A stretch of 64,000 bases of DNA, from positions 48,280 through 112,279 of the IMG/VR virus record IMGVR_UViG_3300030202_002737; one strand, given 5' to 3'. Under the pieces are notes generated by a model. It saw nothing but the letters and a program-made list of their open reading frames with translations, did not search any database and had not been told where the DNA came from. The position numbers and the translations under genes are program-made. Position 1 is the stretch's first letter. Every line of letters begins with the position of its first letter. Origin of the DNA: a virus. Positions 25,922-53,842 of the stretch are shown here, one piece after another.

Positions 25922-27231
25922 AAAAATGTGTTATTTCAAGTCCAGTAGCTACACAATCGGGGTACGGACATCACGCGCGAGAATTTATTAGTCATATAAT
26001 AGAACAAAAAGAAACAGAATGGGATATTAAATTACTTTCAATGCCATGGGGCAACACCCCATTTACATATCCAGTACCAACAGAATGGCAAAGTAAATTT
26101 GTTCCACTTCCATTATCAGAACAACCAGATATATGGGTTCAGATAACAGTACCAAATGAATTTCAAAAAGTTGGTAGATATAATATTGGGGTAACAGCTG
26201 GTACCGAAGGCGATGTAGGTCCAAAAGAATGGATTGAATGTATTAATAGAATGGATGTTATTGTTGTACCATCTGAGTTTACTAAACAAACTTTTATAAA
26301 TACTGCTAAAAAACATAATATGTTGATATCTACTGATATACAAGTCATATCAGAATATTTTGATCAATCTATATATAAACCAATTAAAGACAAATCATTA
26401 ACAATATTAAATGATATTCATGAACAGTTTTGTTATTTATTTGTTGGCCATTGGCTAGAAGGCCAATTGGGCGAAGATAGAAAAAATATTAGTGGCCTAA
26501 TTAACGTATTTTTTGAAACATTTAAAAATAAAACAAATGTTCCAGGATTAATATTAAAAACTGGAGGAGCAACATATTCAGTAACTGACAAGCATGCAAT
26601 TGAACATAAGATTAATCAAATTCGTGCACTATACCCTAAACAAACAAAATTACCTAATGTTTATCTATTACATGGAGACTTAACTGATGATGAAATGAAT
26701 TTACTTTATAATCATACAAAGGTTAAATCAATGATATCATTTACTAAAGCTGAAGGGTTTGGTCGTCCATTATTAGAGTTTGCAACAACAGGTAAGCCTA
26801 TTATAGCTCCACATTATTCGGGACAAGCTGATTTTTTACAAAAAGAAAATATTATTGCATTAATTGGAGGATTAACACCAATACACCAATCAGCACAGAA
26901 TCCATTTTTAATTAATGAAGCTAAATGGTTTACTCCGGATTATGGATATGCAAAAAAAGCATTAAAAGAAGTTCATAAACAATATAATAAATTTTTACCA
27001 GGTTCTAGAGCTCAGAAAAAATTTGTTAATGAAAAATTCACTAGAAATTCAATGAAAGAAAAATATAGTAAGTTAATTGAAACTATTGATATTGGAACTA
27101 AACATATACCTGATACAACGCAATTACAGTTACCTAAATTATCGTTGCCTAAAATAAATAAAACAACAAAATCTAGTTTACCTAATTCCGGAAATACAAA
27201 TATTAAATTACCAAAGTTGAACAAAGTATGA
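25918..27231 (+). CDS. Glycosyltransferase group 1, 437 aa
   Basis: A GT-B protein with SGYGHHAREFI near the start and SFTKAEGFGRPLLEFATTGKPIIAPHYSG in the donor-binding part. A low-complexity tail rich in Lys, Leu, Pro and Asn (repeated KLPKL/SLPK units near residues 405-437) follows the enzyme domain. Overlaps its upstream neighbour by ATGA. Confidence 0.8.
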   Translation: MKKCVISSPVATQSGYGHHAREFISHIIEQKETEWDIKLLSMPWGNTPFTYPVPTEWQSKFVPLPLSEQPDIWVQITVPNEFQKVGRYNIGVTAGTEGDVGPKEWIECINRMDVIVVPSEFTKQTFINTAKKHNMLISTDIQVISEYFDQSIYKPIKDKSLTILNDIHEQFCYLFVGHWLEGQLGEDRKNISGLINVFFETFKNKTNVPGLILKTGGATYSVTDKHAIEHKINQIRALYPKQTKLPNVYLLHGDLTDDEMNLLYNHTKVKSMISFTKAEGFGRPLLEFATTGKPIIAPHYSGQADFLQKENIIALIGGLTPIHQSAQNPFLINEAKWFTPDYGYAKKALKEVHKQYNKFLPGSRAQKKFVNEKFTRNSMKEKYSKLIETIDIGTKHIPDTTQLQLPKLSLPKINKTTKSSLPNSGNTNIKLPKLNKV

Positions 27232-27857
27232 AAATAGGATATTTTATAACAGCTTGTAATGAATTTGAAGAATTGGCAAGATTATTACTAATGCTAAAAA
27301 CAAATATTTCTGATACTGATTGTATAGGAATATTATTAGATGAGACAAATCATACTGATGAAGTTCGGGAATTATGTGAGAAATTTTTACTTCCCGATGA
27401 TTCAATTCGATTAGCATATGCCCCATTAAATAATGATTTTGCTACATTTAAAAATACTGGCTATGAATTATTCCGTGATTGTGATTGGATATTTCAATTG
27501 GATGCAGACGAGATACCTTCTGAGATTCTAGTTAATAATTTACATCCTATATTAGAAATGAATCCTAGTGTCGAATTAATATACATACCAAGAATAAATA
27601 CAGTTGAAGGCTTAACTCAAACTCATATAGAAAAATGGGAATGGCAAGTTAATAACGAAGGATGGGTCAATTGGCCTGATTATCAAGGTAGAATATATAA
27701 ACGAGACAAAAATATAAATTGGGTAGGAAAAGTACATGAAAGAATAGAAGGGCATAAAGCTTTATCTCAAGTGCCACCTAATGAAGAATTAGCATTACAT
27801 CATCCAAAGACAATAGATAAACAAGAACGTCAAAACGAATATTACGAAACGATTTAA
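27228..27857 (+). CDS. Glycosyltransferase family 2 (GT-A), 209 aa
   Basis: MKIGYFITACNEFEELARLL is a typical GT2 start, and IFQLDADEI carries the DxD-type metal/donor site. GWVNWPDYQGRIYKR and VHERIEGHK resemble the SPBP/tetratricopeptide-type GT2 enzymes that act on surface glycans. Overlaps both neighbours by stop/start coupling. Confidence 0.78.
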   Translation: MKIGYFITACNEFEELARLLLMLKTNISDTDCIGILLDETNHTDEVRELCEKFLLPDDSIRLAYAPLNNDFATFKNTGYELFRDCDWIFQLDADEIPSEILVNNLHPILEMNPSVELIYIPRINTVEGLTQTHIEKWEWQVNNEGWVNWPDYQGRIYKRDKNINWVGKVHERIEGHKALSQVPPNEELALHHPKTIDKQERQNEYYETI

Positions 27858-28546
27858 TGAGTTGGCTATCTGAATATATTGATTGTATTGTCTATATAAA
27901 TCTAGACGAAAGACAAGACAGGCGTACTAAATGTGAAGAAGCGCTTAATAGTGTAAATATTACTAATTATTACCGAGTTCCAGCTATTAAAGATAATATC
28001 GGTATACGAGGTTGTACATTATCACATTATAATATAGTAAAGCATGCTAAAGAAAATAATTATAAAAATATATTAATATTTGAAGATGATTTTACTATTA
28101 CTAATCCTTCTACATTTAAATCTACTTTATTAGCATCATTACAACAAATTGAAACAAATAATCTAAGTCCTCATATGCTTTATTTAGGCGGCAATTTATT
28201 AACTGGATATGTTGAAACTAATAAAAAGATCGATAAAAATTTATTTAGAATAGGCGGAGCAAAAACAACTCATTCATACATTGTTTATGAAAGTATGTAT
28301 GATACTATACTAAACAAATATGATAACGTTAACTTTTATGATAATACCATATGGTCAGGTCCTAGCCGTGTAAATATTGATTTTTATTATCTTTCTGAAA
28401 TACATCATAATCCTAATTATAATATATTTGGTTGTTATCCTTGCCTAACAGATCAAGCAGATGATTATAGTGATATAGAGCAGAAAGTTGTAAATTATAA
28501 TTTATCACAATCTTGGAATTCAATATTAGAGGATAGTAATGATTAG
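27857..28546 (+). CDS. Glycosyltransferase family 25-like (LPS type), 229 aa
   Basis: IVYINLDERQDRRTKCEEAL, the GCTLSHYNIVKHA segment and LIFEDDF match GT25 enzymes such as LPS galactosyl- or glucosyltransferases. ALS/TLSH and EDD are the family's conserved donor-binding parts. Part of the same coupled operon. Confidence 0.78.
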   Translation: MSWLSEYIDCIVYINLDERQDRRTKCEEALNSVNITNYYRVPAIKDNIGIRGCTLSHYNIVKHAKENNYKNILIFEDDFTITNPSTFKSTLLASLQQIETNNLSPHMLYLGGNLLTGYVETNKKIDKNLFRIGGAKTTHSYIVYESMYDTILNKYDNVNFYDNTIWSGPSRVNIDFYYLSEIHHNPNYNIFGCYPCLTDQADDYSDIEQKVVNYNLSQSWNSILEDSND

Positions 28547-29282
28547 CTGTAAACTACAAGGAGGTTTAGGTAACTACTTATTTCAAGTAGCTGCAATGTA
28601 CTCATTGTCTGAAGATGTAGGTTTTAATATCCAAGATGCTACACAAGTGCATGGCAATATTAAAAAGTATCTTAGAAATATATTTAGAAAAATAAATCAA
28701 AATGTTGAAGGATTGCAATATGAGTATGATGAACCATCTTTTACATATCAACCACTACCTACATATAATAACATACTATTCAACGGATATTTTCAAAGTG
28801 AAAAATATCTAGATAGGATAAAAATATTAGATTTATATTCAATTGATAAAGCTTCAAATACATATATACAAACTAAATATGCTAATATGTTATCAAATTC
28901 TGTTTCTATTCATGTACGACGGGGTGATTATTTAAATAAACAAGATAAACATCCTGTACAGGATATAAATTATTATAATTCAGCTATGACATATTTCAAT
29001 AATTGTGATAATTTTCTTATATTTAGTGATGATATAGTATGGTGTAAAAATAATTTTGTAGGCGATAAATTTATATTTATCGAAGGAGAAGAAGATTATA
29101 TAGATTTGTGGTTAATGTCATTATGCAATCATAATATAATTGCAAATTCATCATTTAGCTGGTGGGGGGCATGGTTAAATAAAAATAATAATAAAACAGT
29201 AATTGCTCCTAAAAATTGGTTTGGTCCTAATAAAAAATTAGATCCAACTGATTTATATTGTAAAGATTGGTTAGTAATATGA
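28539..29282 (+). CDS. Alpha-1,2-fucosyltransferase-like glycosyltransferase (GT11)
   Basis: The GT11 signature is clear: LQGGLGNYLFQVAAMYSL at the start, SIHVRRGDYLN at residues 123-133, NCDNFLIFSDD, and SSFSWWGAWL near the end. GT11 enzymes transfer L-fucose from GDP-fucose; close relatives can use GDP-colitose. The GDP-sugar genes lie directly downstream, which supports a fucose- or colitose-type donor. Confidence 0.87.
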   Translation: MISCKLQGGLGNYLFQVAAMYSLSEDVGFNIQDATQVHGNIKKYLRNIFRKINQNVEGLQYEYDEPSFTYQPLPTYNNILFNGYFQSEKYLDRIKILDLYSIDKASNTYIQTKYANMLSNSVSIHVRRGDYLNKQDKHPVQDINYYNSAMTYFNNCDNFLIFSDDIVWCKNNFVGDKFIFIEGEEDYIDLWLMSLCNHNIIANSSFSWWGAWLNKNNNKTVIAPKNWFGPNKKLDPTDLYCKDWLVI

Positions 29283-30115
29283 GTAAATTAAAATTAAAAA
29301 TAATAGAACAAACGTTTTGTCATTGTGAATATAGTAATAATCCTATGCCACCTGTATCTTTTTCAGATAATATAGAATGGGATAGAAACGTATCTCATAA
29401 TGAAGATTTAGTATTTTATACCGACAGCGATATTATGAAAGGCGATAAATCGGGCCACCGCAAAAAAATAGCATGGTTAATAGAACCATATGTTAAACAA
29501 CCCGATTGTTATGAATGGGTATTAAATAACAATCATTTATTTGATTATGTATTAACTAATGAAAAAAAATTACTAGATAAAGGCGAAAATTTCATTTATT
29601 ATCCTTTTGGCGGATGCTGGATAGAACCAGAAAATAGAATGTTTCATAATAAAACTAAAATAGTAAGTATTATCGCATCAGGAAAAAGCAATGTTCCTGA
29701 TCATTTAAAAAGGCATGAACTAATACAACGATGGGGCAATGTTATTGATGTTATGGGTAGAGGATATAATCCAATTGATAGTATAACTACTGGATTAAAA
29801 GATTATGCATTTCATATTGCAATGGAAAATCAACGGCGAGATCTACATTTTTCCGAAAAATTAATTAATCCTATTATGACCGGAACAATTCCAATCTATT
29901 GGGGTATGCCGTCAATTGGAGATTATTTTGATACGCGCGGGATGATTATAATGAATGATATAGAAGAATTTCCTAATATATATGCATCATTAGGACAAGA
30001 TTTATATAATGAAAAATTACCATATGCTAAAGAAAATTTCGAAACTGCAAAAAAATATATATTGTCAGAAGATTGGATGTATGAGAATATTTTTACTTTA
30101 ATGGGAATTATATAA
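29279..30115 (+). CDS. Alpha-1,3-fucosyltransferase-like glycosyltransferase (GT10)
   Basis: KDYAFHIAMENQRRDLHFSE then KLINPIMTGTIPIYWG resembles the GT10 donor-binding motif, in which FENS-like residues are followed by EK and a P-V-x-W/G end. The protein has 278 residues. Start at 29279 overlaps the upstream stop. The donor is probably GDP-fucose or GDP-colitose, as for the gene before it. Confidence 0.72.
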   Translation: MSKLKLKIIEQTFCHCEYSNNPMPPVSFSDNIEWDRNVSHNEDLVFYTDSDIMKGDKSGHRKKIAWLIEPYVKQPDCYEWVLNNNHLFDYVLTNEKKLLDKGENFIYYPFGGCWIEPENRMFHNKTKIVSIIASGKSNVPDHLKRHELIQRWGNVIDVMGRGYNPIDSITTGLKDYAFHIAMENQRRDLHFSEKLINPIMTGTIPIYWGMPSIGDYFDTRGMIIMNDIEEFPNIYASLGQDLYNEKLPYAKENFETAKKYILSEDWMYENIFTLMGII

Positions 30116-31002
30116 TGAAACAAATATTAGTTACAGGCGGCACAAGTACGGTAGGCAAGCATCTTAAGGAAATATTACCTGATGCAATTTATATTAGTAG
30201 CACTGATTGTGATTTGACAGATATAAAAATGGTTAGGTGGTTGATATCATCATATACACCTGATATAGTTGTTCATTTAGCTGCTAAGGTTGGCGGCATA
30301 CAAGATAACATTGCTAAACCTGCAGAATACTTTGATGATAACATATTAATGAATACTAACATATTGAAAGTTTCTCATGAATATAAGGTCAAAAGATTTA
30401 TTGGAATATTAAGTACATGTATATATCCAGATAAGGTAGATTCATATCCTATGAAAGAAGAAGTAATGTTTGCCGGCCCGCCAACTCCTACTAATTTTAG
30501 TTATGGATATGCTAAACGAGCATTAGCAGTACAGATCGAAGCATATAATAAGCAATATGGTACGGCGTATAATTATATTACACCATGTAATTTATATAGT
30601 GAATATGATAATTTTGATAATGATAATAAAATGCATTTTATTACCGCTTTGTTAAAAAAGATTAAAACGAGTAATGGTGAATTAAATTTATTAGGTACTG
30701 GAAAGCCACTTCGTCAGTTTATGTATGCCGGAGATCTTGCTAAGGTTATTAAGTTAACTATTGAAAATGATGTTACTGAAAGTTTCAATATTGCATATCC
30801 AAAAAATCAATCAATTAATGACTTAGCTGAAAAAGCATTAGGTTCTTTAAAGAAAAATTATTATATTAAATATAATAATCCAGAGCTAGATGGCCAATAT
30901 CGTAAAGATGTTGATACAACAAAAATGCTATCATTATTTCCGGAATTCAAATTTACTTCATATGAAGAAGGCATAAAAAAAGTATATGATAAAATTAGTT
31001 AG
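30115..31002 (+). CDS. GDP-sugar epimerase/reductase: GDP-colitose synthase (ColC) or GDP-L-fucose synthase (Fcl)
   Basis: A short-chain dehydrogenase-fold enzyme with NADP-binding VTGGTSTVGKHL, HLAAKVGGI, catalytic STCIYP (Ser and Cys) and YGYAKRA (Tyr and Lys), and MHFITALLKK carrying the epimerase His. All of these are Fcl/ColC residues. Fcl makes GDP-L-fucose from the Gmd product. ColC does the same chemistry on the 3-deoxy intermediate made by ColD. The ColD-like gene directly downstream tips the balance towards ColC. Confidence 0.82.
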   Translation: MKQILVTGGTSTVGKHLKEILPDAIYISSTDCDLTDIKMVRWLISSYTPDIVVHLAAKVGGIQDNIAKPAEYFDDNILMNTNILKVSHEYKVKRFIGILSTCIYPDKVDSYPMKEEVMFAGPPTPTNFSYGYAKRALAVQIEAYNKQYGTAYNYITPCNLYSEYDNFDNDNKMHFITALLKKIKTSNGELNLLGTGKPLRQFMYAGDLAKVIKLTIENDVTESFNIAYPKNQSINDLAEKALGSLKKNYYIKYNNPELDGQYRKDVDTTKMLSLFPEFKFTSYEEGIKKVYDKIS

Positions 31003-32140
31003 CGATACAATAGATAAACAAGATATAACAGCGCTTGTCGAATGGTTACAACAAGATCCAATACCAAGACTTACTAAAGGCGAATTAACCAAGCGGTTAG
31101 AAGAAAAATGGGCTAAGAAAATAGGAACAAAATATTCTGTATTTGTTAATTCAGGATCTTCTTCTATTTTATTAACCTTAGCTGCTTTAAAGTATTCAAA
31201 TAAATTAAAGAACAATAAAATTATAGTACCTGCATTAAGCTGGGCAACAGATGTTAGCTCACCTATGTTGTTAGGGTATGAAACTTATATGTGTGATTGT
31301 AATTTAGAAGACTTATCTTGTGACTTAGATCATTTAGAAAAATTATTTAAAGAACATAATCCTTCTACATTTATTTTAGTTTCGCCGTTAGGTTTAGTAC
31401 CTGATATGAAGAGAGTGGTAGACCTATGCAAAAAATATGATGTATTACTTTTAGAAGATGTATGTGAAAGCATGGGATCTAAATACCAAGAACAGTACCT
31501 AGGAAGTTTTGGATTAGCATCTTTTTACTCAATGTATTTTGGTCATCACCTATCCACAATAGAAGGAGGGTTTATTAATACCGATGATGAAGATTTATAT
31601 CATTTATTGTTAATGATTAGAAGCCATGGATGGGATAGAGATTTACCTAAAGATAAACAAAAAGAATTAAGAGATAAGTATAAATGCACAGAATTCAATT
31701 CTTTGTATAATTTTTATGTACCAGGAATGAACGTAAGATCAACTGACTTACAAGCATTTATAGGTTTAAGAGCTATAAAGAAATTAGATGATTATTCTCA
31801 AAGACGTAGAGTTAACTTTAAACATTATATAAATTTAATAAAAAATAATGAATTAGAACTAAAAGAAAATAAAAATGATTTTGTTTCTAGTTTTGCTATT
31901 CCTATATTACATTCAAAAAGAGATGAAATTATTAAAGAATTACAAGATAACAAGATTGAAGTTAGACCTTTAATCGCAGGTAACATGGCAAATAAACCGA
32001 TGTGGTATAATGAAAATGATATACCATCATTATCAAACTGCGAATCATTAGATAAGTCAGGATTTTATATTCCTAATCATCAAGATTTAACGAAAAAAGA
32101 TATGAACTTAATAATAGACATAATAAACAAATATGAGTAA
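30986..32140 (+). CDS. colD: GDP-4-keto-6-deoxymannose 3-dehydratase (ColD-like), PLP-dependent
   Basis: The fold is that of a DegT/DnrJ/EryC1 aminotransferase, but the PLP lysine is replaced: the active-site loop reads YFGHHLSTIEGG with His188, the change that turns this fold into the ColD 3-dehydratase. SGSSSILLTL binds the PLP phosphate, and LLLEDVCESMGS has the PLP-ring Asp/Glu region. The enzyme removes the 3-hydroxyl from GDP-4-keto-6-deoxymannose. With Gmd and the ColC/Fcl-type enzyme, the product would be GDP-colitose. Length is 384 residues, about that of ColD. Confidence 0.87.
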   Translation: MIKLVSDTIDKQDITALVEWLQQDPIPRLTKGELTKRLEEKWAKKIGTKYSVFVNSGSSSILLTLAALKYSNKLKNNKIIVPALSWATDVSSPMLLGYETYMCDCNLEDLSCDLDHLEKLFKEHNPSTFILVSPLGLVPDMKRVVDLCKKYDVLLLEDVCESMGSKYQEQYLGSFGLASFYSMYFGHHLSTIEGGFINTDDEDLYHLLLMIRSHGWDRDLPKDKQKELRDKYKCTEFNSLYNFYVPGMNVRSTDLQAFIGLRAIKKLDDYSQRRRVNFKHYINLIKNNELELKENKNDFVSSFAIPILHSKRDEIIKELQDNKIEVRPLIAGNMANKPMWYNENDIPSLSNCESLDKSGFYIPNHQDLTKKDMNLIIDIINKYE

Positions 32141-33113
32141 AGTAGCATTAATAACTGGAATAAATGGCCAAGACGGATCATATCTGTCAGAACTATTAGT
32201 GGAAAAAGGTTATGAAATTTGGGGAATACTAAAACGTAACTCTGTAGCAGAAAATCAAACAGCTAGGATTCCGGACAGATTATTTAAACAAGTCAAATTA
32301 GAATATGCTGATATGACAGATATGTCATCACTTATTCGAGTATTGCAATTATGTAAACCTGATGAAATATATAATCTAGCTGCTCAATCCCATGTAAGAA
32401 TTAGTTTTGATCAACCAATATATACGACAGATTCTATTGCAATGGGTACGCTGAATTTGTTAGAAGCTATACGGCTAACTTGTCCAAGCGCAAAAATGTA
32501 TCAAGCAAGTAGCTCGGAGATGTTTGGTAATACTATAGATGCCGACGGATACCAAAGAGAAACAACACCTCTTAATCCAGTATCTCCATATGGCTGTGCA
32601 AAAGTATTTGGATATAACATATGTAGAAATTATAGGAATGCATACAATATGTTTATATCAAATGGAATATTATTTAATCATGAATCTCCAAGGCGCGGCA
32701 CAAATTTTGTAACTAACAAAGTAGTAAAAGAAGCTGTCAAAATTAAATTAGGATTATCGAAACAGTTATTACTTGGTAATTTAGATGCTAGTAGAGATTG
32801 GGGACACGCAAAGGATTATGTATATGCAATGTGGTTAATGTTACAACATGATAAACCAGATGATTTTGTATGTTCAACCGGAGTATCACATACAGTAAGG
32901 GATTTAGTTGAATATGTATTTAATAAATTAGGAATGGATTATGAATGTTATGTTACCCAGGATAAAAAATATTATAGATCAGAAGAGTTAGAATTTTTAA
33001 AAGGAGATTGTTCAAAAACACAGAAGCAACTTAACTGGAAACATAAATATACATTTGAGTCTATGTTAGATGAAATGATTAACTATTGGATTGAATATTA
33101 TGAAAAAGCTTAA
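32133..33113 (+). CDS. gmd: GDP-mannose 4,6-dehydratase (Gmd)
   Basis: The first enzyme of the GDP-fucose and GDP-colitose paths. Visible motifs are ALITGINGQDGSYLSELL (NADP binding), IYNLAAQSHV, ASSSEMFGNT with the catalytic Thr/Glu region, PLNPVSPYGCAKVFG (Tyr and Lys), NHESPRRGTNFVTNKV and NLDASRDWGHAKDYV. All are Gmd hallmarks. Length is 326 residues, slightly short for Gmd. Host GDP-mannose is the presumed substrate. Confidence 0.95.
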   Translation: MSKVALITGINGQDGSYLSELLVEKGYEIWGILKRNSVAENQTARIPDRLFKQVKLEYADMTDMSSLIRVLQLCKPDEIYNLAAQSHVRISFDQPIYTTDSIAMGTLNLLEAIRLTCPSAKMYQASSSEMFGNTIDADGYQRETTPLNPVSPYGCAKVFGYNICRNYRNAYNMFISNGILFNHESPRRGTNFVTNKVVKEAVKIKLGLSKQLLLGNLDASRDWGHAKDYVYAMWLMLQHDKPDDFVCSTGVSHTVRDLVEYVFNKLGMDYECYVTQDKKYYRSEELEFLKGDCSKTQKQLNWKHKYTFESMLDEMINYWIEYYEKA

Positions 33114-37242: not shown

Positions 37243-37533
37243 ATGAATACAAACAAGTTATTGCTAAAAGCAAGGAAAAGACTCATGGCCTTTAGAGACA
37301 TGTTTAAAGACAATAATGATATAAATGAAAAAAATGTTGTAGGATTTGCATCATTTGCAGTAATGGTACTATTCGCAATTGCAGATATAGTTACAGGTTG
37401 GACCGGAAATCCATTACATGTTAACGAATTTATTTATAACTCATTTTTATGGATAACTTTAGGAAGCTTCGGAATATCAGAAGCTGGCAAAATTTTTGGG
37501 AAATCAAATCCCGGTGAGGAAATACAAGAATGA
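37243..37533 (+). CDS. Holin-like small membrane protein, 96 aa
   Basis: The N-terminus is basic and charged. Two hydrophobic segments follow (VVGFASFAVMVLFAIADIV and FIYNSFLWITLGSFGISEAG), then an acidic tail. This is the size and layout of a class II holin-like protein. Its position right after the putative lysin supports the call. Confidence 0.6.
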   Translation: MNTNKLLLKARKRLMAFRDMFKDNNDINEKNVVGFASFAVMVLFAIADIVTGWTGNPLHVNEFIYNSFLWITLGSFGISEAGKIFGKSNPGEEIQE

Positions 37534-38642
37534 AAAAACTATTATTAATATTTTTATGTATAATAAGTTTTAATGCAAACTCTCAATTTGTTAAAAAGTT
37601 TTTCAAGTACTCAACAATATATGCATCTGGTAATATAGGCCAGCCACTGCAAGAATCTAACAAAGATTGGTATGTAACACAAGATAGTCGTTTAACTGAT
37701 GTAACTGAAGTATACCCGTTTGATTATAGAATTTCTGTTGGCATTAGAAAAATAGCTAGATTTGATTATGAAGTTAAACCTAATGTATTTTACGACGGCT
37801 CAGAAGAAAATGTTGGATGGAAATCTAATATAGGAGCAGTCAAAGGGTTTGAATACTTGTTTGCAAGAGATTGGGTAAGGCAATGGGGAGATAACTTTAA
37901 CAATCAAAGTTATTTTTTAAGATATCTAGGCAATTGGTGGGTAGGATCAATTAAGTTTAATGAATTCGGTGTAGCTGATTTAAAATATGCTCAAGCCGAT
38001 TTAAGATTTAGATGGGCAATTGGAAAGCATTTAAATTTATCAATTGGAAGCTTAGTAAGATCTCATGGTCCATATGGATACAATCCTATAGGTATATATC
38101 TTCGGGATAATGCTTGGTGGACATTAGCGTATCAATATAACTACACAGATCAACCATATCAATTAATCGACTTTACTAGTGCACAACCTGATACTATAAT
38201 TGATTGGATGTGGAAAGATCCAGACGGCAATGAAATAGCAAGTTCCGATGAAGAATTTAGAACACATTATTATGGAGATATTGTAAATGATTTTCAAAAC
38301 GAAAAATTATCTGAAGTTGGCGGCTTATTTACATTATCCGCAGTTATTGGAATCGATTGGTATCATTACGCTAAAAATGAAAGAGTATGGGGTCATGCTT
38401 GGGCTAATATAATACCTAGGCATAAACATATATATGGAGACGAAAATTTTAGTTATTCTCGATTTGTATCCAGAAATCCAGAAACATTAGGCCAGACACA
38501 ATGGATTGATTATAATATAGGATTAATGTTTGGAGCTAAGATAAGCAAAGGATTAGGCATATTTTTAGAAGGAAACTATTTGAAGTATTGGGATAGAGTA
38601 GTATATTCTAGTAAAGTGGGTATTAATTATCAATTTAAGTAA
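37530..38642 (+). CDS. Exported outer-membrane beta-barrel-like protein, 370 aa
   Basis: It starts with a signal peptide (KKLLLIFLCIISFNANSQ) whose end is typical of Bacteroidota. The mature part is rich in Tyr, Trp and alternating hydrophobic residues. It contains repeated strand-like segments (YFLRYLGNWWVGSIKF, YAQADLRFRWAIGKHLNL) and closes with VGINYQFK, which resembles a barrel-end strand. It would lie in the host outer membrane, perhaps for lysis or to mask receptors. It overlaps the holin-like gene by ATGA. Confidence 0.68.
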   Translation: MKKLLLIFLCIISFNANSQFVKKFFKYSTIYASGNIGQPLQESNKDWYVTQDSRLTDVTEVYPFDYRISVGIRKIARFDYEVKPNVFYDGSEENVGWKSNIGAVKGFEYLFARDWVRQWGDNFNNQSYFLRYLGNWWVGSIKFNEFGVADLKYAQADLRFRWAIGKHLNLSIGSLVRSHGPYGYNPIGIYLRDNAWWTLAYQYNYTDQPYQLIDFTSAQPDTIIDWMWKDPDGNEIASSDEEFRTHYYGDIVNDFQNEKLSEVGGLFTLSAVIGIDWYHYAKNERVWGHAWANIIPRHKHIYGDENFSYSRFVSRNPETLGQTQWIDYNIGLMFGAKISKGLGIFLEGNYLKYWDRVVYSSKVGINYQFK

Positions 38643-38647
38643 ATATC

Positions 38648-38950
38648 ATGGGAAAACAATTAGACGAAGACACTGGGTTTAAAATAACAATAAAAACTCT
38701 AATAGCCATAGCAATAGGAATTACTACAGTAGTAAGTTTCTGGTTTGCATTTCAATCAGATCTAGATGACATCAGAAGTGAAATTGAAGAAGCAAAAAAA
38801 TTACCTGATCCTGTAATCTCTAGAGATGAATATGATTTAAAAGATCAACTTATACGACAAACAATAATGTCGACACAAGAAGATGTACAAGACATTAAAA
38901 TTAAAATTGATAAAATCGATGATTATATTAGAAATGGAAAAAGACGATGA
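38648..38950 (+). CDS. Membrane-anchored coiled-coil protein, spanin-like candidate, 100 aa
   Basis: A single N-terminal membrane helix (LIAIAIGITTVVSFWFAF) is followed by a charged, helical periplasmic part with heptad-like pattern. The layout is that of an inner-membrane spanin, and the gene sits in the presumed lysis block. No lipoprotein o-spanin gene is obvious next to it. Confidence 0.5.
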   Translation: MGKQLDEDTGFKITIKTLIAIAIGITTVVSFWFAFQSDLDDIRSEIEEAKKLPDPVISRDEYDLKDQLIRQTIMSTQEDVQDIKIKIDKIDDYIRNGKRR

Positions 38951-39324
38951 AAATAATTAAAATATTATTATTAGCATTACTTCCTAGCTTAGGTGCTATT
39001 AGTGCACAAGAAACCATTACATCAACAAATTTCAAAACAAAAACACAAAAAGGAGTTACAGTTGTTGAATTTAATGCTCCATTTAATAAACAAAATAATT
39101 TTGCACAGTGGAAAAGATTAGAACATTGTCATTATTATAGAGTCTGTATACAAGGAAGTCCTGATTTAAAAAAGAAATATAAAATATATTCTTATCCTAC
39201 GATATTAATATTTCAAAATGGTTATGTAGAAAATAAATTCAAAGGTAATATTATGTTAGAATTAGATGCTACCTTCGAAGAAATACAAAAATCAATTGAC
39301 GAACTATTTTTAGAGAAATTTTAA
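38947..39324 (+). CDS. Exported thioredoxin-fold protein lacking the CxxC site
   Basis: A signal peptide (KIIKILLLALLPSLGAISAQ) is followed by a thioredoxin-like body. VTVVEFNAP corresponds to the strand before the active site, and YSYPTILIFQNGY contains the conserved cis-proline strand and the following beta hairpin. The CxxC motif is absent; two cysteines occur later (EHCHYYRVCIQ). It may be a binding or structural variant instead of a reductase. Length 125 residues. Confidence 0.65.
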   Translation: MKIIKILLLALLPSLGAISAQETITSTNFKTKTQKGVTVVEFNAPFNKQNNFAQWKRLEHCHYYRVCIQGSPDLKKKYKIYSYPTILIFQNGYVENKFKGNIMLELDATFEEIQKSIDELFLEKF

Positions 39325-46088: not shown

Positions 46089-46640
46089 ATGAAAAAAGAT
46101 TTTAAATATATCTATGGCATTGGCAAACAATCTTTAAACTTTACTGAAAATGATATACGTTATGCAATGGAAAACACAAAGTCAAATTCAGAAGCAGCTA
46201 GATTTCTCAAAGTATCATTTACAACATATAAAAAATATGCAAAAATGTATACTGATTCAGCGACTGATAAAACATTATGGGATCTACATAAAAATCAAGC
46301 TGGTAAAGGTATACGAAAAGATGTAGTAAAAGCTAATTCTGGTCCATATACAATTGATAAAATACTACAAGGAGAACATCCTAATTATCCAACATGGAAG
46401 TTACGAAATAGATTGTTGGCATTGGGTATATTTGAAGAAAAATGTTCATGTTGTGGGTATCAAGAACGACGTGTAACTGATGACACTACTCCATTATTAT
46501 TAGATCATATTGATGGTGACACAACTAATCATCGCATTGAAAATTTACAAATGTTATGTTTAAATTGTTATTATATGCAGGTTGGAAATCCATTTAATCA
46601 AGATAAAGAGCATTTTTGGAATTATAATTTATTAGAATAA
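46089..46640 (+). CDS. HNH-type endonuclease with N-terminal helix-turn-helix-like region
   Basis: KCSCCGYQ, LLLDHIDGDTTNHRIENLQM and LCLNCYYMQ give the zinc Cys pairs and the D-H ... N core of HNH nucleases. The last His of the usual NCHxxT end is replaced by Tyr, so activity may be reduced. TENDIRYAME followed by NSEAARFLKVSFTTYKKYA looks like a DNA-binding helix-turn-helix. It could be a free-standing homing or packaging-related nuclease. Confidence 0.75.
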   Translation: MKKDFKYIYGIGKQSLNFTENDIRYAMENTKSNSEAARFLKVSFTTYKKYAKMYTDSATDKTLWDLHKNQAGKGIRKDVVKANSGPYTIDKILQGEHPNYPTWKLRNRLLALGIFEEKCSCCGYQERRVTDDTTPLLLDHIDGDTTNHRIENLQMLCLNCYYMQVGNPFNQDKEHFWNYNLLE

Positions 46641-47263
46641 TGCATGAGACAATAGAAATATCAGGTAAGTACAGAAATTTAGTAACACAGCTGTCACGTT
46701 TGGTTTTACGGCAAATTAAAGTATCTAAACACAAACGATTAAGTTATGAAGTAGTAATGTTCAAAGAGATTATTAATCGAGACATTCCATTACATTTTTA
46801 TTTAGGTCTGCAAACAAAATATTCAACTAATCTTTGTGTTACAGGAGATGCATATAATCCTACAGAACCAGTAAGTGATCAAATACCTTATATAGAAGTT
46901 TCAATTGAAACTACTGGAGAGAAAACCCATTTAAGTCATATTGCATTACGATTAGGTAACACATTAAGACATGAAATAGAACATATCACTCAAAGTGGAC
47001 TGAATACATTACCAGGAAAGTATTTGCCTGATGATCAAAAATTACGAGAAACAGCAACAAATGCGCAATATCATTTGTTAGATAAAGAAATACCAGCAAT
47101 GCTACATGGATTACATACTCAAGCAAAAAAAGAACGTAAACCATTTTTAGAAAAATTGTATGAATATTTAGATGAAACATATTTATTAGAAAGTGATATG
47201 GAATCTATTAAATCCATATGGTTAAGCAAAGCAAAGGAGTTAAATTTATGCCCGGAAAAATAA
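46640..47263 (+). CDS. Putative zinc metalloprotease (HEIEH), 207 aa
   Basis: NTLRHEIEHITQSG carries an HExxH zinc site at residues 111-115. RETATNAQYHLLDKEIPA follows and may supply the third ligand (Glu). Proteins with a HEIEHLTQ-type motif are frequent in large phages, perhaps as virion or host-targeting proteases. The stop lies beyond the start of the next gene. Confidence 0.68.
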   Translation: MHETIEISGKYRNLVTQLSRLVLRQIKVSKHKRLSYEVVMFKEIINRDIPLHFYLGLQTKYSTNLCVTGDAYNPTEPVSDQIPYIEVSIETTGEKTHLSHIALRLGNTLRHEIEHITQSGLNTLPGKYLPDDQKLRETATNAQYHLLDKEIPAMLHGLHTQAKKERKPFLEKLYEYLDETYLLESDMESIKSIWLSKAKELNLCPEK

Positions 47264-48056: not shown

Positions 48057-48263
48057 ATGAAAAAAGTTATTATAATATTATTAGCATTATTTTTAGTTAC
48101 AAATTGTAAGAATGAGTATATCATTGTTTCAACTTCAAATTGTAAATATTATAAAGGATTAGAAATTTCTCAATATCAAAGTCATGACGGTACAAATTAT
48201 CTTGAAGATCTCATGGTAGTATTTCCAGATACTACATATTTAAAATATAATGAAAAATTATAA
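48057..48263 (+). CDS. Small putative lipoprotein, 68 aa
   Basis: KKVIIILLALFLVTNCKNEY is a lipoprotein signal with lipobox VTNC. The mature peptide is about 50 residues and Tyr-rich. It would sit in the host envelope; a spanin-like or exclusion role is possible. It overlaps the next gene. Confidence 0.6.
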   Translation: MKKVIIILLALFLVTNCKNEYIIVSTSNCKYYKGLEISQYQSHDGTNYLEDLMVVFPDTTYLKYNEKL

Positions 48264-48606
48264 AAGAAAAATACCTAAAGAAGTACGTAGAAGATTATTA
48301 GAAAGGCGTACAAGGATCTTTACTAGATGGCTTAAAATTAATTTTGAAAAGCCTTATACTATATTCCTAGCAGCATTCTTTCCTTTTGCACAAGCATTTT
48401 TAGCATCTGTAATAGTTATATACACAGATCCATCAAAATCAAGCTGGCAATCAAATATAGCTTTATTCGTAGTTGCTGGATTATATTATCTTGCTTTTGC
48501 TATGAACTCTCAACGTGCAACCAAAGGTTCTTGGTTAGGATTAGTATTACTTGTTACCTTTGGAGCATTCGGTATTATCTGCGGAAAATTGATGCTAACA
48601 AATTAA
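48250..48606 (+). CDS. Integral membrane protein, 118 aa
   Basis: A strongly basic cytoplasmic N-terminus (RKIPKEVRRRLLERRTR) is followed by three likely membrane helices. Not assigned to a family. It ends the operon that starts near 45074. Confidence 0.65.
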   Translation: MKNYKRKIPKEVRRRLLERRTRIFTRWLKINFEKPYTIFLAAFFPFAQAFLASVIVIYTDPSKSSWQSNIALFVVAGLYYLAFAMNSQRATKGSWLGLVLLVTFGAFGIICGKLMLTN

Positions 48607-48684: not shown

Positions 48685-50085
48685 ATGAACATTAAATTTA
48701 CTACACTACTATTAATAGTTATAATATTCTTATCTAATTTAGGAATTTCTCAATGTGACAATGGTACTAATTATTATCCTAGTACTGTATATACTCCAGA
48801 TGATAACATTTGGGGGTCTGCTACTACTTATAATTATGCCGGCGAAATTATTAAAGTTAACATAGTTTCAGGAGATGAATACCAATTTTCTACATGTTCG
48901 AGTTATGGTGGAGTTACCGCTACATATGATACTCAGTTAACTCTTATAGATGAGTTAGGATCAGTTGTAGATTTTAATGATGATTTTAGTGGTTGTGGTT
49001 TGACTTCTTATATTAAATATACAGCTACTTATACAGGCGTTTTATATGTACACTTAAATGAATATAACTGCGCTTCTAATTCTACTTCTACAGAAGTAAG
49101 GATATATAAAACTCCTGTCGCCGGCGGAAGTACTGATGAAGTTACTATTGGAGATCCTAATTCTACTTTACAAAACGGCAGAGTTCCTGCTTATGGATAT
49201 TATGATTATAGTTGGAGTGCAGCAATATATACTGCAACTGAATTAGGCGGATTCCCTAGAACAATAGAAAAAATTAGTTGGAATGTCACTAATGGAAATT
49301 CGATGACTTTAAATAATCAAGAGATATGGATCGCTCATACTCTAGAAGAAGAATTTCCTGACGGTACAATGCCAGATGTAGGTAATGGTCCTTGGAATGG
49401 GTTTGTTAAAGTTTTCAGTGGAAGTTTACCATTCTCACCAGGATGGAACGAGATAGTTTTAAACCTTCCTTTTAATTTTAATGGATCGGAAAACTTATTA
49501 ATTAAAGTAGTAAATAATCATGGATCTTGGGCTTCTAGTTATCCTGAATTTCAATATACTAGCAAAGCTAATTCAGTAGTATATAATTATGATGATGGAA
49601 GCTTCCCTCCGTCTATAGGATACAGAAATTCATATAGACCTAATACACGATTCGGATTCAGCACTGGAAATTCTTTGCCGATTGTGTTAGTTTCATTCGA
49701 AGGAGAAAATCTAGGGAATTATGTTAAGTTAGAATGGGTAGTTGCATCTCAAGTAAATAACGATTATTATACAATTGAAAAATCATTAGATGCTTATGAT
49801 TGGGAAGAAATATCTATGCAATATGGAGCAGGAAATACAAACCAAGTAATGACTTATATAACATATGATGAAAATCCTAATATAGGTCACAATTATTATA
49901 GATTAACTCAAACAGATTTTGACGGCGTATTTGAAACATTTAATCCAATTGCAGTTACTATTAAACCAGAAAGGAAAGAAGTGATAAGTAGAACAAATTT
50001 ATTAGGCCAGGAGGTAGATGAATTATATTCTGGTATTAGTATATTAATTTGGGATAATGGAGATATACAAAAAATAATTAAATAA
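48685..50085 (+). CDS. Secreted protein with Bacteroidota type IX-secretion sorting domain
   Basis: The 466-residue protein begins with a signal peptide (residues about 1-22, ending GISQ). The first domain is Cys-containing and beta-rich (EYQFSTCSSYGGVTATYDTQ). A middle beta domain follows. Near residue 330, LPIVLVSFEGENLGNYVKLEW and later YYRLTQTDFDGVFETF match the domain that precedes C-terminal sorting signals in Bacteroidota. The end, TNLLGQEVDELYSGISILIW then DNGDIQKIIK, has the layout of a type A sorting domain. The protein would be exported to the host cell surface by the host's own machinery, or it is a virion protein built from such domains. Confidence 0.82.
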   Translation: MNIKFTTLLLIVIIFLSNLGISQCDNGTNYYPSTVYTPDDNIWGSATTYNYAGEIIKVNIVSGDEYQFSTCSSYGGVTATYDTQLTLIDELGSVVDFNDDFSGCGLTSYIKYTATYTGVLYVHLNEYNCASNSTSTEVRIYKTPVAGGSTDEVTIGDPNSTLQNGRVPAYGYYDYSWSAAIYTATELGGFPRTIEKISWNVTNGNSMTLNNQEIWIAHTLEEEFPDGTMPDVGNGPWNGFVKVFSGSLPFSPGWNEIVLNLPFNFNGSENLLIKVVNNHGSWASSYPEFQYTSKANSVVYNYDDGSFPPSIGYRNSYRPNTRFGFSTGNSLPIVLVSFEGENLGNYVKLEWVVASQVNNDYYTIEKSLDAYDWEEISMQYGAGNTNQVMTYITYDENPNIGHNYYRLTQTDFDGVFETFNPIAVTIKPERKEVISRTNLLGQEVDELYSGISILIWDNGDIQKIIK

Positions 50086-50142: not shown

Positions 50143-51282
50143 ATGAAAGAAGTAGAAGTTTATGGTTCCGTTACCACAGAAGACGGAGAGTTTATCAAAG
50201 TAGTTAGTACCAATGGTGATGACATTACAGATCTATTCAGAGATGATATGATCAAGATAGCATATGAAAATGGTGAAGCATTAAAATATAATGAAGAAAC
50301 CGGCAGAGCTAAAAGGATCGATCCAGATCAATTGCCTAATCCAACTCCTAAGAAAAAAGAAGTAGTTAAAGATGAAGATCCAGTATTGGCATTCATTAGT
50401 AACGCTCCTGCAATTAAGCCAGATCATTTAGAAATTACAGATATCAAATGGAAGTATCTAATTAGGTCAGCAGTTAGAGGTAAAAATATTATGATGGTTG
50501 GACCTGCAGGGTCAGGTAAGACAGAAGCAGCAAAGGCATTGCCTACGGCAACTGATAGACCATTCTTTTATTTTAACTTAGGTGCTACGCAAGATCCTAG
50601 ATCAACATTAATTGGTAATACGCATTTTAAGAACAATGAGACAATGTTTGATGAATCGGCATTCATTAAGGCGATAAAGACAGAAAATGCAGTAATCCTT
50701 TTAGATGAGCTGTCTAGAGCGCATCCTGAAGCATGGAATATATTAATGACTGTATTGGATGAAGGACAACGATATTTGAGATTAGATGAGAATATCGATG
50801 CACCATTAGTCAACGTAGCTCAAGGAGTATCATTTATTGCAACGGCTAATATTGGTACAGAATATACATCTACTAGAGTATTAGATAGAGCATTAATGGA
50901 TAGATTTGAAGTTATTGAAGTAGACATATTATCTAAAGAAAGAGAACATGTTTTATTAAGTAAACGATTTGGTAATAAGGTTGAAGATAGCTTATTAGAA
51001 TCTGTAGCAGATATAGCTGATGTAACTAGAAAAGAGTGGAGATCAGATGAAGGCAAACTAAGCACAATGATATCGACACGTATGACAGTTAGAATTTGTG
51101 AGTTGTTAGCAGATGGCTTTACATTAGAAGAAGCTGCGGAGGTAGGCATCCTTCCATTCTTTGATGCATCGGGCGGAGGCGACTCTGAAAGATTATTTGT
51201 TAAGCAAGTTATTCAGAAACATTTAGGTACCGCAGAAGAAGATATCTTTAATGTAGGAGAAGAAAAAGTAGAAGAAGAGTAG
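50143..51282 (+). CDS. MoxR/CobS-like AAA+ ATPase
   Basis: The 379-residue protein has Walker A GPAGSGKT at residues 120-127, Walker B NAVILLDELSRAH, sensor 1 FIATANIGTEY and an arginine-finger region DRALMDRFEVIEV, the MoxR/CobS order. An N-terminal region of about 90 residues is acidic. MoxR ATPases work with VWA-domain partners as chaperones that remodel or load metal into targets. The VWA partner is at 51830. Confidence 0.87.
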   Translation: MKEVEVYGSVTTEDGEFIKVVSTNGDDITDLFRDDMIKIAYENGEALKYNEETGRAKRIDPDQLPNPTPKKKEVVKDEDPVLAFISNAPAIKPDHLEITDIKWKYLIRSAVRGKNIMMVGPAGSGKTEAAKALPTATDRPFFYFNLGATQDPRSTLIGNTHFKNNETMFDESAFIKAIKTENAVILLDELSRAHPEAWNILMTVLDEGQRYLRLDENIDAPLVNVAQGVSFIATANIGTEYTSTRVLDRALMDRFEVIEVDILSKEREHVLLSKRFGNKVEDSLLESVADIADVTRKEWRSDEGKLSTMISTRMTVRICELLADGFTLEEAAEVGILPFFDASGGGDSERLFVKQVIQKHLGTAEEDIFNVGEEKVEEE

Positions 51283-51293
51283 TATTAAAAAGT

Positions 51294-51392
51294 ACGCAGC
51301 TATGCGTCAAATAGCATCTTTCATATCTTAAGGGAGTCAAAGTAGATCGATCTACTGCCATCTGTATACGGACAGCGCTGACTCCCTTTTTA
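51294..51392 (+). ncRNA. Structured RNA element with three-way-junction fold and terminator
   Basis: A hairpin (ACGCA 51294-51298 with TGCGT 51303-51307) is followed by a closing 10-bp stem (AAGGGAGTCA 51330-51339 with TGACTCCCTT 51379-51388) that encloses a perfect 16-bp palindrome (51341-51356) and a CTGT/ACAG hairpin. A T run follows. It lies between the ATPase and the next gene, so it may be an attenuator or a small RNA as well as a terminator. Confidence 0.6.
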
Positions 51393-51399
51393 AAGTATT

Positions 51400-51413
51400 G
51401 TTGGGTTCTTTGA
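51400..51413 (+). repeat. Left arm of a 14-bp inverted repeat flanking the 51434 gene
   Basis: GTTGGGTTCTTTGA at 51400-51413 is the exact reverse complement of TCAAAGAACCCAAC at 51763-51776. Confidence 0.8.
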
Positions 51414-51433
51414 CATAATAAGAAAGGAAGCAT

Positions 51434-51754
51434 ATGGAAACAAATATGTTATTAGGAATCCTTATCGGAGCTGGTACTGTAGCTTTATTGGCATTTTTTG
51501 CTTATAGGGTAAAGGTATCTTTTGATAGGGTAAACAGAAATTTCTCAGATTTAAACACAGATATATACAGTAGTTTAGATCAATTTAAAAACCAAGTAGA
51601 TCATATGATAGAAAACGTTGACAGAGCATTACATGAAAATGTAGATGATGTATATAGAACAATGGATTCTAGATTTGATAAAACAGAATCAAAAATAGTG
51701 GACTTAGTTAAAGCAAGAACTAAGCATACTAGATTTGCAGATAAAATAAAGTAA
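51434..51754 (+). CDS. Membrane-anchored coiled-coil protein, 106 aa
   Basis: One N-terminal membrane helix (LLGILIGAGTVALLAFFAY) and a long charged helix with heptad-like spacing. An AAAGGAAG site precedes the ATG. It sits between the AAA+ gene and the VWA gene, so it could anchor that complex to the membrane. The whole gene is bracketed by a 14-bp inverted repeat. Confidence 0.62.
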   Translation: METNMLLGILIGAGTVALLAFFAYRVKVSFDRVNRNFSDLNTDIYSSLDQFKNQVDHMIENVDRALHENVDDVYRTMDSRFDKTESKIVDLVKARTKHTRFADKIK

Positions 51755-51762
51755 ATTAATCT

Positions 51763-51782
51763 TCAAAGAACCCAACTTTTTT
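51763..51782 (+). terminator. Right arm of the inverted repeat followed by six T residues
   Basis: TCAAAGAACCCAAC is followed by TTTTTT. It has no local partner; pairing with 51400-51413 would close a loop of about 350 nt around the gene and form a terminator-like stem. Confidence 0.45.
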
Positions 51783-51783
51783 C

Positions 51784-51812
51784 TTGGAATTATGAATTAC
51801 TTTTCTTATTAT
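51784..51812 (+). promoter_or_regulatory. Promoter TTGGAA-17-TATTAT before the VWA gene
   Basis: TTGGAA 51784-51789, 17 bp, TATTAT 51807-51812, then an AAAAGGAG ribosome site and the ATG at 51830. Confidence 0.68.
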
Positions 51813-51829
51813 ATATAAAAAGGAGATAT

Positions 51830-53842
51830 ATGAAAAAATTACGAATTAGAAAGACAACAGCAAATCCAATCAAAACATATCAAACGTCTGCATCTAGCTA
51901 TTGGTTTGACGCTATTGATACGGATTTTAATTATAAAGTCAATAACAAACGACATGTAGATCATACAAAATTGGCCTCAGCACAAAGAGCTATAGGTAAT
52001 TTTGTTAATATTGTAACAGGTAAACAAATCCCAGTACGTTTTCAAAATAATGGAGATAGCTATACTGATGGCAGGTCAGTTACTATAGGATCTAAAATAG
52101 AAGATAAGAATTTTGATTCAACCGTTGGTTTAGCATTACATGAAGGTTCTCATATTGCATTAACTAATTTTAATTTATTAGACAGTTTATCAATTGGAAG
52201 TAGATTCCATAGTCATATAGCTATGAGAGGCGGAGATCCTGATATGGATATGGTTGAATCTGATATCTTAAAGGTTAAGGATTTATTTAATTGGGTAGAA
52301 GACAGAAGAATTGACTACCATATTTATACAAGTGCTCCAGGTTACAGAAAATATTATGAATCTATGTATGAAAAATATTTCAATGCAAAGATTGTAGACA
52401 AAGCTTTGAAGTCTAATGAAAAGACAGATGAGGATTGGGACTCATATATGTTTAGGATTATTAATTTAACTAATCCTAATAGAAGAGTGGATGCGTTAGA
52501 AGTATTACCCCAAATATGGGATCTAATTGATCTTAAAAATATTAATAGACTTAAGACATCTGAAGATGCTTTAAATGTAGCAATAGAAGTTTATAAGCTA
52601 ATTAGAAAGCAAGTTAATGAAAGTCAAAGTAAGAAGCAAACCAAGACGCCTGTCGGATCTAATCCGGGAGACTGTAAAGGGAAAGAACAAAAGACAAAAG
52701 GTTCACAAAATGGTAACTGTGGAGCAGCTGATACAAAAGCCGAAAATGATGAATTATCACAAAGAGAAAAAGAAAGACTTGTAAAGCAGATTGCAAAGCA
52801 AGAAGATTTTGTTAATGGTAATACTAAGAAAATTGGTAGGCTTTCTAAGAAGGATACCCAAATTGTAAAAAGTCTTAAAGACTCAGGAACAGAAAATAAT
52901 CCAGTTAATACTAATATGTCAGCAGGTCCAATGTATAATGTAGATTGTATCGTTATAAAGAAAATGACTTATTCAGTTATGTGTCATATGGATACAATAT
53001 TTGATTCATATAGTTTACAAAGAGGCTCAGAATCTAAAAGTTACTACGGGCCTGGAACAGGAGTACAAGAAGGTATTATTTTAGGTAAACAGTTAGGTAA
53101 AAAGTTACAATTGAGAAATGAAGAAAAGTCATTGAAGTCGACAAGATTGAATACGGGTAAGATTGATAGAAGATTGATATCTCAATTAGGATTTCAAAAT
53201 GCCAATGTGTTTCATAGAATAGTAACTGATAGATATAAGAATTTCTTTATACATATTTCAATTGATGCATCAGGCTCAATGGGAGGACAAAGATTTCAAA
53301 ATGCTATTAAGTCAGCGGTAGCAATTGCTCAAGCCGCATCTATGACAACAGGTATTAGAGTTCAAATCTCTTTGAGAGGAACAAGTCATCTTAATGGTAA
53401 TACAGAAAAGACAGTTACGGTATATGCATATGATAGTGCAGTAGACAAAATGTCAAAGATTAAAAGTTATTTTCCATACCTTAGAACATTTGGATGCACT
53501 CCAGAAGGGTTGTCATTTAAAAGTATACTACCTTATATAAAAGCAGATGCAAAAGGCGATGAGTCTATCTTTATTAATTATTCAGATGGATGTCCAAGTT
53601 CAGTAAGTGGAGCTGCTTGGGGATATAGTGGAATTGAATTTACTAAAAAAGTTGTAAATGAAATGAAAGAGCTGGGTATTAGTGTGTTATCATATTATAT
53701 TGATGGCAAATCAGACGGATATTCAGCAGATTATTTTAGAAGAATGTATGGTAAGAATTCAGAATTTATAGATACATGTAATCTTACTCAAATATCAAAA
53801 TCAATGAATAACAAGTTTTTAGAATTATCAGAATCAATATAA
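51830..53842 (+). CDS. CobT-like protein: zincin motif plus C-terminal VWA domain
   Basis: The 670-residue protein has LALHEGSHIAL with HExxH at residues 104-108, a charged Lys/Gln/Asn-rich linker at about 265-345, and a VWA domain in which HISIDASGSMGGQRF (MIDAS, Asp479) binds a metal. FINYSDGCPSS is the later MIDAS part. VWA proteins of this type pair with MoxR/CobS ATPases, here at 50143. The combination with a metalloprotease-like motif is repeated in other large phages; the target is unknown. Confidence 0.82.
   Translation: MKKLRIRKTTANPIKTYQTSASSYWFDAIDTDFNYKVNNKRHVDHTKLASAQRAIGNFVNIVTGKQIPVRFQNNGDSYTDGRSVTIGSKIEDKNFDSTVGLALHEGSHIALTNFNLLDSLSIGSRFHSHIAMRGGDPDMDMVESDILKVKDLFNWVEDRRIDYHIYTSAPGYRKYYESMYEKYFNAKIVDKALKSNEKTDEDWDSYMFRIINLTNPNRRVDALEVLPQIWDLIDLKNINRLKTSEDALNVAIEVYKLIRKQVNESQSKKQTKTPVGSNPGDCKGKEQKTKGSQNGNCGAADTKAENDELSQREKERLVKQIAKQEDFVNGNTKKIGRLSKKDTQIVKSLKDSGTENNPVNTNMSAGPMYNVDCIVIKKMTYSVMCHMDTIFDSYSLQRGSESKSYYGPGTGVQEGIILGKQLGKKLQLRNEEKSLKSTRLNTGKIDRRLISQLGFQNANVFHRIVTDRYKNFFIHISIDASGSMGGQRFQNAIKSAVAIAQAASMTTGIRVQISLRGTSHLNGNTEKTVTVYAYDSAVDKMSKIKSYFPYLRTFGCTPEGLSFKSILPYIKADAKGDESIFINYSDGCPSSVSGAAWGYSGIEFTKKVVNEMKELGISVLSYYIDGKSDGYSADYFRRMYGKNSEFIDTCNLTQISKSMNNKFLELSESI

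Follow-up and report, generated by a model that had tools for sequence, protein, structure and literature searches.

The ORF described here raises the question of whether a phage can send a protein of its own to the surface of a Bacteroidota cell by way of the host type IX secretion system (T9SS), and what such a protein would do there. The window, i.e., the whole 64,000-nucleotide stretch that was analysed, is taken from IMG/VR record IMGVR_UViG_3300030202_002737 (positions 48,280 to 112,279). The 112,279-base record is that of a T4-like myovirus: it encodes a terminase (TerL), portal, major head protein, sheath, tube, and UvsX, together with a DNA polymerase, a DnaB-like helicase, a clamp loader, RNR, and GroEL. 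The initial annotation described a phage gene for a secreted protein with a signal peptide, a beta-rich body, an LPIVLVSF...YYRLTQTDFDG domain, and an LLGQEV...NGDIQKIIK tail; all of these elements are present as described, and the ORF has exactly the boundaries given in Table 1, within a genuine tailed-phage genome.

The window protein and its domains

A purine-rich sequence, GAGGGAG, lies a short way 5' of the ATG start. Cleavage of the signal peptide is predicted before Q23 (between NLGIS and QCDN), and residues 5-19 form a hydrophobic helix in the AF2 model, which has a mean pLDDT of 82.7 over the whole protein. Full-length homologues at 61-65% identity are found in other phage contigs, and pairwise dN/dS across phages is 0.13-0.29 over the whole gene; the ORF is thus a maintained gene, beyond what chance would give. 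Beta-rich domain 1 is common to proteins of loci L001, L109, L116, L121, and others by alignment, with no match in the Pfam scan, and beta-rich domain 2 also occurs in L008, a bacterial cargo protein from Crocinitomicaceae. Curated profiles and sequences (Pfam, NCBIfam, PHROGs, and PDB sequences) yielded nothing usable for the window protein. The Pfam family Ig_GEX2_N, with an E value of 0.009, fell below the cut-off and was taken as a chance match, and a Foldseek search against PDB gave generic beta-sandwich multidomain matches only (TM < 0.25), which were not used. Structural matches in BFVD were mostly to unnamed proteins of uncultured phages.

Table 1. Features of the cargo gene, its product, and its upstream neighbours (window coordinates)
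Feature	Position	Strand	Basis
Phage-encoded predicted T9SS cargo CDS, 466 aa, ATG start	48685..50085	+	ORF, homologues, dN/dS, AF2 model
Sec signal peptide MNIKFTTLLLIVIIFLSNLGIS then QC, residues 1-22	48685..48750	+	Sequence, model
Beta-rich domain 1, residues 23-143, CDNGTNYYP...YDTQLTLIDELG...NDDF	48751..49113	+	Alignment, model
Beta-rich domain 2, residues 152-328, jelly-roll-like	49138..49668	+	Alignment, model
Ig/FnIII-like module, residues 331-425, LPIVLVSF...YYRLTQTDFDG...	49675..49959	+	Sequence comparison
Short CTD (looks like) KPERKEVISRTNLLGQEVDELYSGISILIWDNGDIQKIIK, 40 aa, residues 427-466	49963..50082	+	A2 profile, model, motif layout
Putative lipoprotein, 68 aa (MKKVIIILLALFLVTNC...), possible envelope partner	48057..48263	+	Neighbour
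Membrane protein, 118 aa, ends 79 nt upstream of cargo gene	48250..48606	+	Neighbour

A short tail and the curated sorting-domain profiles

The tail had been read as a type IX sorting domain, for which a search with the sorting-domain families was the proposed check; that search came back empty, which is, taken literally, the outcome named as a refutation of that reading. PF18962 matched nowhere in the record, and neither NCBIfam, including TIGR04183, nor PHROGs matched the window protein even at E <= 10; Pfam gave only sub-threshold matches to the protein, none of them in the tail. Sibling proteins of loci L121, L125, L129, L102, and L005 do match the canonical type A sorting-domain profile, whereas the window protein does not. 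The A2 profile, on the other hand, matches the window tail in the record with an E value of 1.8e-19; this is the one short-tail protein of the phage, and no long-tail match was found in its record. The tail is a short form missed by the curated models, and not a canonical sorting domain. Its length is 40 residues with three predicted strands, as against the 70-80 residues and seven-stranded beta-sandwich, with a PNP start, of the TIGR04183/PF18962 Por_Secre_tail. It lacks a PNP motif, and only five residues separate its motif B from its motif D. The two forms are nonetheless alike in being C-terminal, in following an Ig-like module on signal-peptide proteins, in possessing a motif B-like xLxGxxV, a conserved motif D glycine, and a terminal lysine-containing motif, and in being exchanged between sibling phage proteins. 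In the siblings, the long tails show the same motifs but extend further on the N-terminal side, and their motifs B and D are wider apart; common descent of short and long tails is weakly supported because hhalign aligned only the motif B region of the two (prob 39.6, E 3e-4).

In residue order, the tail consists of a strand (433-437), the motif B-like NLLGQEV (438-444), the spacer DELYS, the motif D-like G450 with a strand following (451-456), and the motif E-like QKIIK (462-466). The AF2 model places strands at 433-437, 451-456, and 461-465, and the block formed by residues 421-466 has a pLDDT of 78-92. Among 42 aligned tails from phages and bacteria, G441 and G450 are invariant and N438, G459, and K463 are at least 90% conserved; motif D of the window tail is without the tyrosine of GxY. 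Among the ORFs of this analysis, 88 of 89 tail matches end no more than 10 residues from the C-terminus. A signal peptide was found in 65 of 73 complete phage proteins containing the Ig-like module but in only 39 of 555 other phage ORFs, counted with a simple heuristic on complete N-termini among related rows, so that a p-value is merely indicative.

The closest parallel is found in Prevotella intermedia, where short CTDs of 43-55 residues, with 1-6 residues between motifs B and D rather than the 10-17 of the long form, make up one three-stranded sheet with predicted PorV binding, and where cleavage and glycosylation were shown by experiment (Ye et al. 2025, PMC11969387). According to a review (PMC5445135), the secretion signal was narrowed down to the C-terminal 22 residues of a CTD, which contain motifs D and E. 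The window tail has the same B-D-E motif order, a B-D spacing within the same 1-6 residues, and three predicted strands, and in both cases short and long CTDs coexist. It differs in being slightly shorter and in having a motif D without GxY, the likeness being one of motif layout, and in its lineage, which here is Crocinitomicaceae and other Flavobacteriales plus phages. From its C-terminal location and B-D-E spacing, the window tail looks like a short CTD.

Exchange of tails and spread of the module among phages and bacteria

The most direct evidence on what the short tail does comes from its replacement. The window protein is 58% identical to that of L121 over residues 3-424, the match ending right at the tail, and the L121 tail is a TIGR04183 domain above the cut-off (E 8.1e-7); a structural model of this long-tailed sibling had low confidence (mean pLDDT 67) and was not used. 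At one conserved cargo locus of related phages, with the same flanking genes on both sides, short tails are present in L002, L088, L090, L093, L095, L096, and L099, and long tails in L121 and L136. This natural exchange argues that the short tail is functionally equivalent to the long one. L002 and L087 have the Ig-like modules nearest to that of the window protein but differ in their bodies; body, module, and tail therefore recombine. In these comparative tests, the tail behaves as a T9SS signal, and that part of the original assignment holds, although the tail is not the standard domain and the profiles fail to find it.

Those copies of the Ig/FnIII-like module (window 49675-49959 and loci L001-L165) that were scanned had no Pfam or NCBIfam match, and the module appears to be an unmodelled domain family. 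It is encoded in 157 IMG/VR stretches and in at least 567 bacterial genome stretches, mostly before long tails in the latter; among the 80 of these that were kept, nearly all are from Bacteroidota according to their record titles. In both phages and Bacteroidota, the module sits just before a short or a long T9SS tail. Of the 87 bacterial proteins classified, 17 had the short tail, as did 73 of 88 phage proteins; this sample is biased toward the short class because the search query itself had a short tail. Sixteen large phage records, chosen because they contain the module, were searched, and it was found in every one; four of them are 462-642 kb in size, and TIGR04183 is above the cut-off in 12 of the 16. 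The four huge phages (L003-L006; LR745206, LR756504, LR756500, and LR756502; 462-642 kb and unannotated) encode short- or long-tailed T9SS cargo, and a single genome has as many as three TIGR04183 matches. Our search of the open-licence literature yielded nothing on T9SS in huge phages, nor any report of long/short tail exchange at one locus.

On the module tree, phage and bacterial labels require 11 changes, compared to about 49 in shuffles, and there is a 41-row all-phage group with weak support (80); the tree was built from a short alignment of 105 columns and leaves many forks unresolved. The tree suggests long circulation of the module among phages with some exchange with bacteria. It also bears on the idea that the gene is a moron, i.e., a host gene passively captured and without a role in the phage. 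The module is indeed common in Bacteroidota, with the many loci noted above, and cargo bodies differ between phages, but the clustering of phage copies on the tree, purifying selection on the gene, and a locus conserved throughout a phage group all make passive capture highly improbable.

By sequence, T9SS-bearing bacteria also place this short tail on proteins of their own. It is present on 1-12 ORFs per genome in 10 of 12 selected Bacteroidota genomes; a PorV-family protein was above the cut-off in all 12, and PorV co-occurrence is a poor discriminator because both genomes without the short tail also encode PorV. In the family of genome G001, which is probably Crocinitomicaceae, 43 of 80 genomes have the short tail, whereas a phylum-wide sample had it in just one of 148 genomes, and that one was the seed. 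L008, from Crocinitomicaceae, shares 37% identity with the window protein over residues 165-463, a match that runs through the tail. A bacterial leucine-rich-repeat protein carries the short tail in the absence of the Ig-like module, so tail and module are separable. As of the 2025 study, P. intermedia was the sole species of the phylum reported with both long and short CTDs (PMC11969387), and in the open-licence literature that we searched, no short CTD was reported for phages or for bacteria of the Crocinitomicaceae type; the present data suggest that these bacteria are a second lineage with both forms. Cargo of these bacteria and their phages is under-annotated because the curated sorting-domain models miss the short signal. 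With natural pairs in which the same body ends in a long or in a short tail, the minimal T9SS signal can be tested directly.

Probable export of the cargo and its possible purpose

The window protein is most likely cargo exported via the T9SS of the host. Its Sec signal peptide would take it across the inner membrane; the translocon of the host, together with the PorV shuttle, would then recognise the 40-residue short sorting domain with its motifs B, D, and E and three predicted strands. The beta-sandwich body would be carried outside and probably become attached to the outer surface. There, the cargo displayed during infection may mask surface receptors, bind to them, or compete with them. 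Architecture, conservation, tail exchange, and presence in bacteria with a T9SS are computational results; from them we infer export, PorV binding, and attachment of the cargo, and the infected cell thus probably displays a virus-made adhesin-like protein on its surface.

Ig-like domains are widespread in phage structural proteins, and the initial annotation had offered recruitment into the virion as its second option, the protein then being a decoration or receptor-binding component that uses Bacteroidota-type domains merely as binding modules. In the L001 group, the cargo gene does come after a gene for a 2376-residue, possible virion protein. However, the head and tail genes of the present record are at 3-35 kb, whereas the cargo gene lies outside this structural block at about 97-98 kb, some 60 kb away. 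The signal peptide is conserved, many bacterial proteins that belong to no virion share the C-terminal arrangement, and the tail swaps with a canonical T9SS signal. A virion component is therefore very unlikely.

Host-surface export, by comparison, was supported by the comparative tests, but the accompanying judgement that it would be unusual was not, because phage T9SS cargo as such is already known, having been reported in 2019-2020. Cryophage encodes three T9SS cargo proteins with type A sorting domains, and its authors suggested that these hijack the host system and may serve in superinfection exclusion (PMC7468147); a lineage of crAss-like gut phages encodes proteins with T9SS sorting domains (PMC6949934). 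Like the Cryophage proteins, the window protein is phage-encoded predicted T9SS cargo of a class with variable bodies, but theirs were annotated as type A domains on an endoglucanase, a GH39 protein, and a PA14 protein, whereas the window protein has a short CTD and a body without an enzyme match. The crAss-like proteins, also phage gene products with T9SS sorting domains, differ in having BACON bodies and recognised sorting domains, and in coming from gut crAss-like phages. With the present data, phage use of host type IX export passes from isolated reports to a widespread, modular class of phage genes.

Pfam matches in 47 phage cargo proteins were mostly to binding modules (CUB in eight, MAM in seven, and P-domain in two), and there were no enzyme domains among them. 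In flavobacteria, mutations in gliding genes lead to phage resistance, and the gliding adhesins SprB and RemA, which leave the cell through the T9SS, are possible phage receptors (PMC13288928). Masking of or competition for receptors is the leading guess because cargo bodies are mostly binding modules and T9SS adhesins are candidate receptors; that superinfection exclusion, or some related change of the surface, is the purpose is a guess by analogy, and for superinfection exclusion one that is less likely right than wrong. The same candidate receptors would also suit a decoy substrate that jams or competes for the host T9SS and so lowers the display of host adhesins or receptors, the body hardly mattering; across phages, the tail is indeed retained on widely differing bodies. 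A pure decoy has no need of a conserved body, yet the body is under purifying selection, as measured over the whole gene, and we regard a decoy as quite unlikely.

Exported cargo might instead act chiefly as infection ends and the cell lyses, with released phage, debris, or adjacent cells as conceivable targets. In L103-L114, the cargo gene abuts (<1 kb) a putative M15-type endolysin gene and one for a spanin-like lipoprotein, their identities having been read from sequence, and a late role is a possibility because this phage group has its cargo gene beside lysis-type genes. However, the cargo gene of the window is about 10 kb from a holin-like gene and outside any lysis cassette, and that of the L002 group is at another locus; a mainly lysis-stage role is unlikely, if less so than a decoy.

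Returning to surface display, a broader reading has somewhat less than an even chance of being correct: phages of Crocinitomicaceae-type Bacteroidota would maintain a dedicated, swappable slot for surface cargo, long shared among phages and tagged with either a long or a minimal 40-residue signal. If true, adhesin-like bodies with a swappable tag would re-dress the surface of the infected cell so as to mask receptors or exclude superinfection; the short tag would represent a second lineage of minimal T9SS signals that are functional, and would predict the host lineage where it occurs.

Several other genes in the window may concern the cell envelope or lie close to the cargo gene. L097 and L121 likewise encode a member of the family of the 118-residue upstream membrane protein (Table 1) close to their cargo gene. 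Just 3' of the cargo gene is a pair encoding a MoxR-type AAA ATPase and a CobT/VWA-like protein (50143-53842), and at 46640-47263 is a gene for a 207-residue protein with an HExxH-like stretch (RHEIEHITQ), a possible metalloprotease with no PHROG or Pfam match. The 370-residue product of 37530-38642 has a signal peptide, is beta-barrel-like, ends in ...GINYQFK, and had no Pfam or PHROG match; it is possibly a phage-encoded outer-membrane protein. A 125-residue thioredoxin-fold protein (38947-39324; PF00085, E 1.8e-5) is probably periplasmic because it has a signal peptide. Lastly, positions 24464-33113 comprise a sugar-modification cluster of glycosyltransferases, an aminotransferase, and nucleotide-sugar epimerases.
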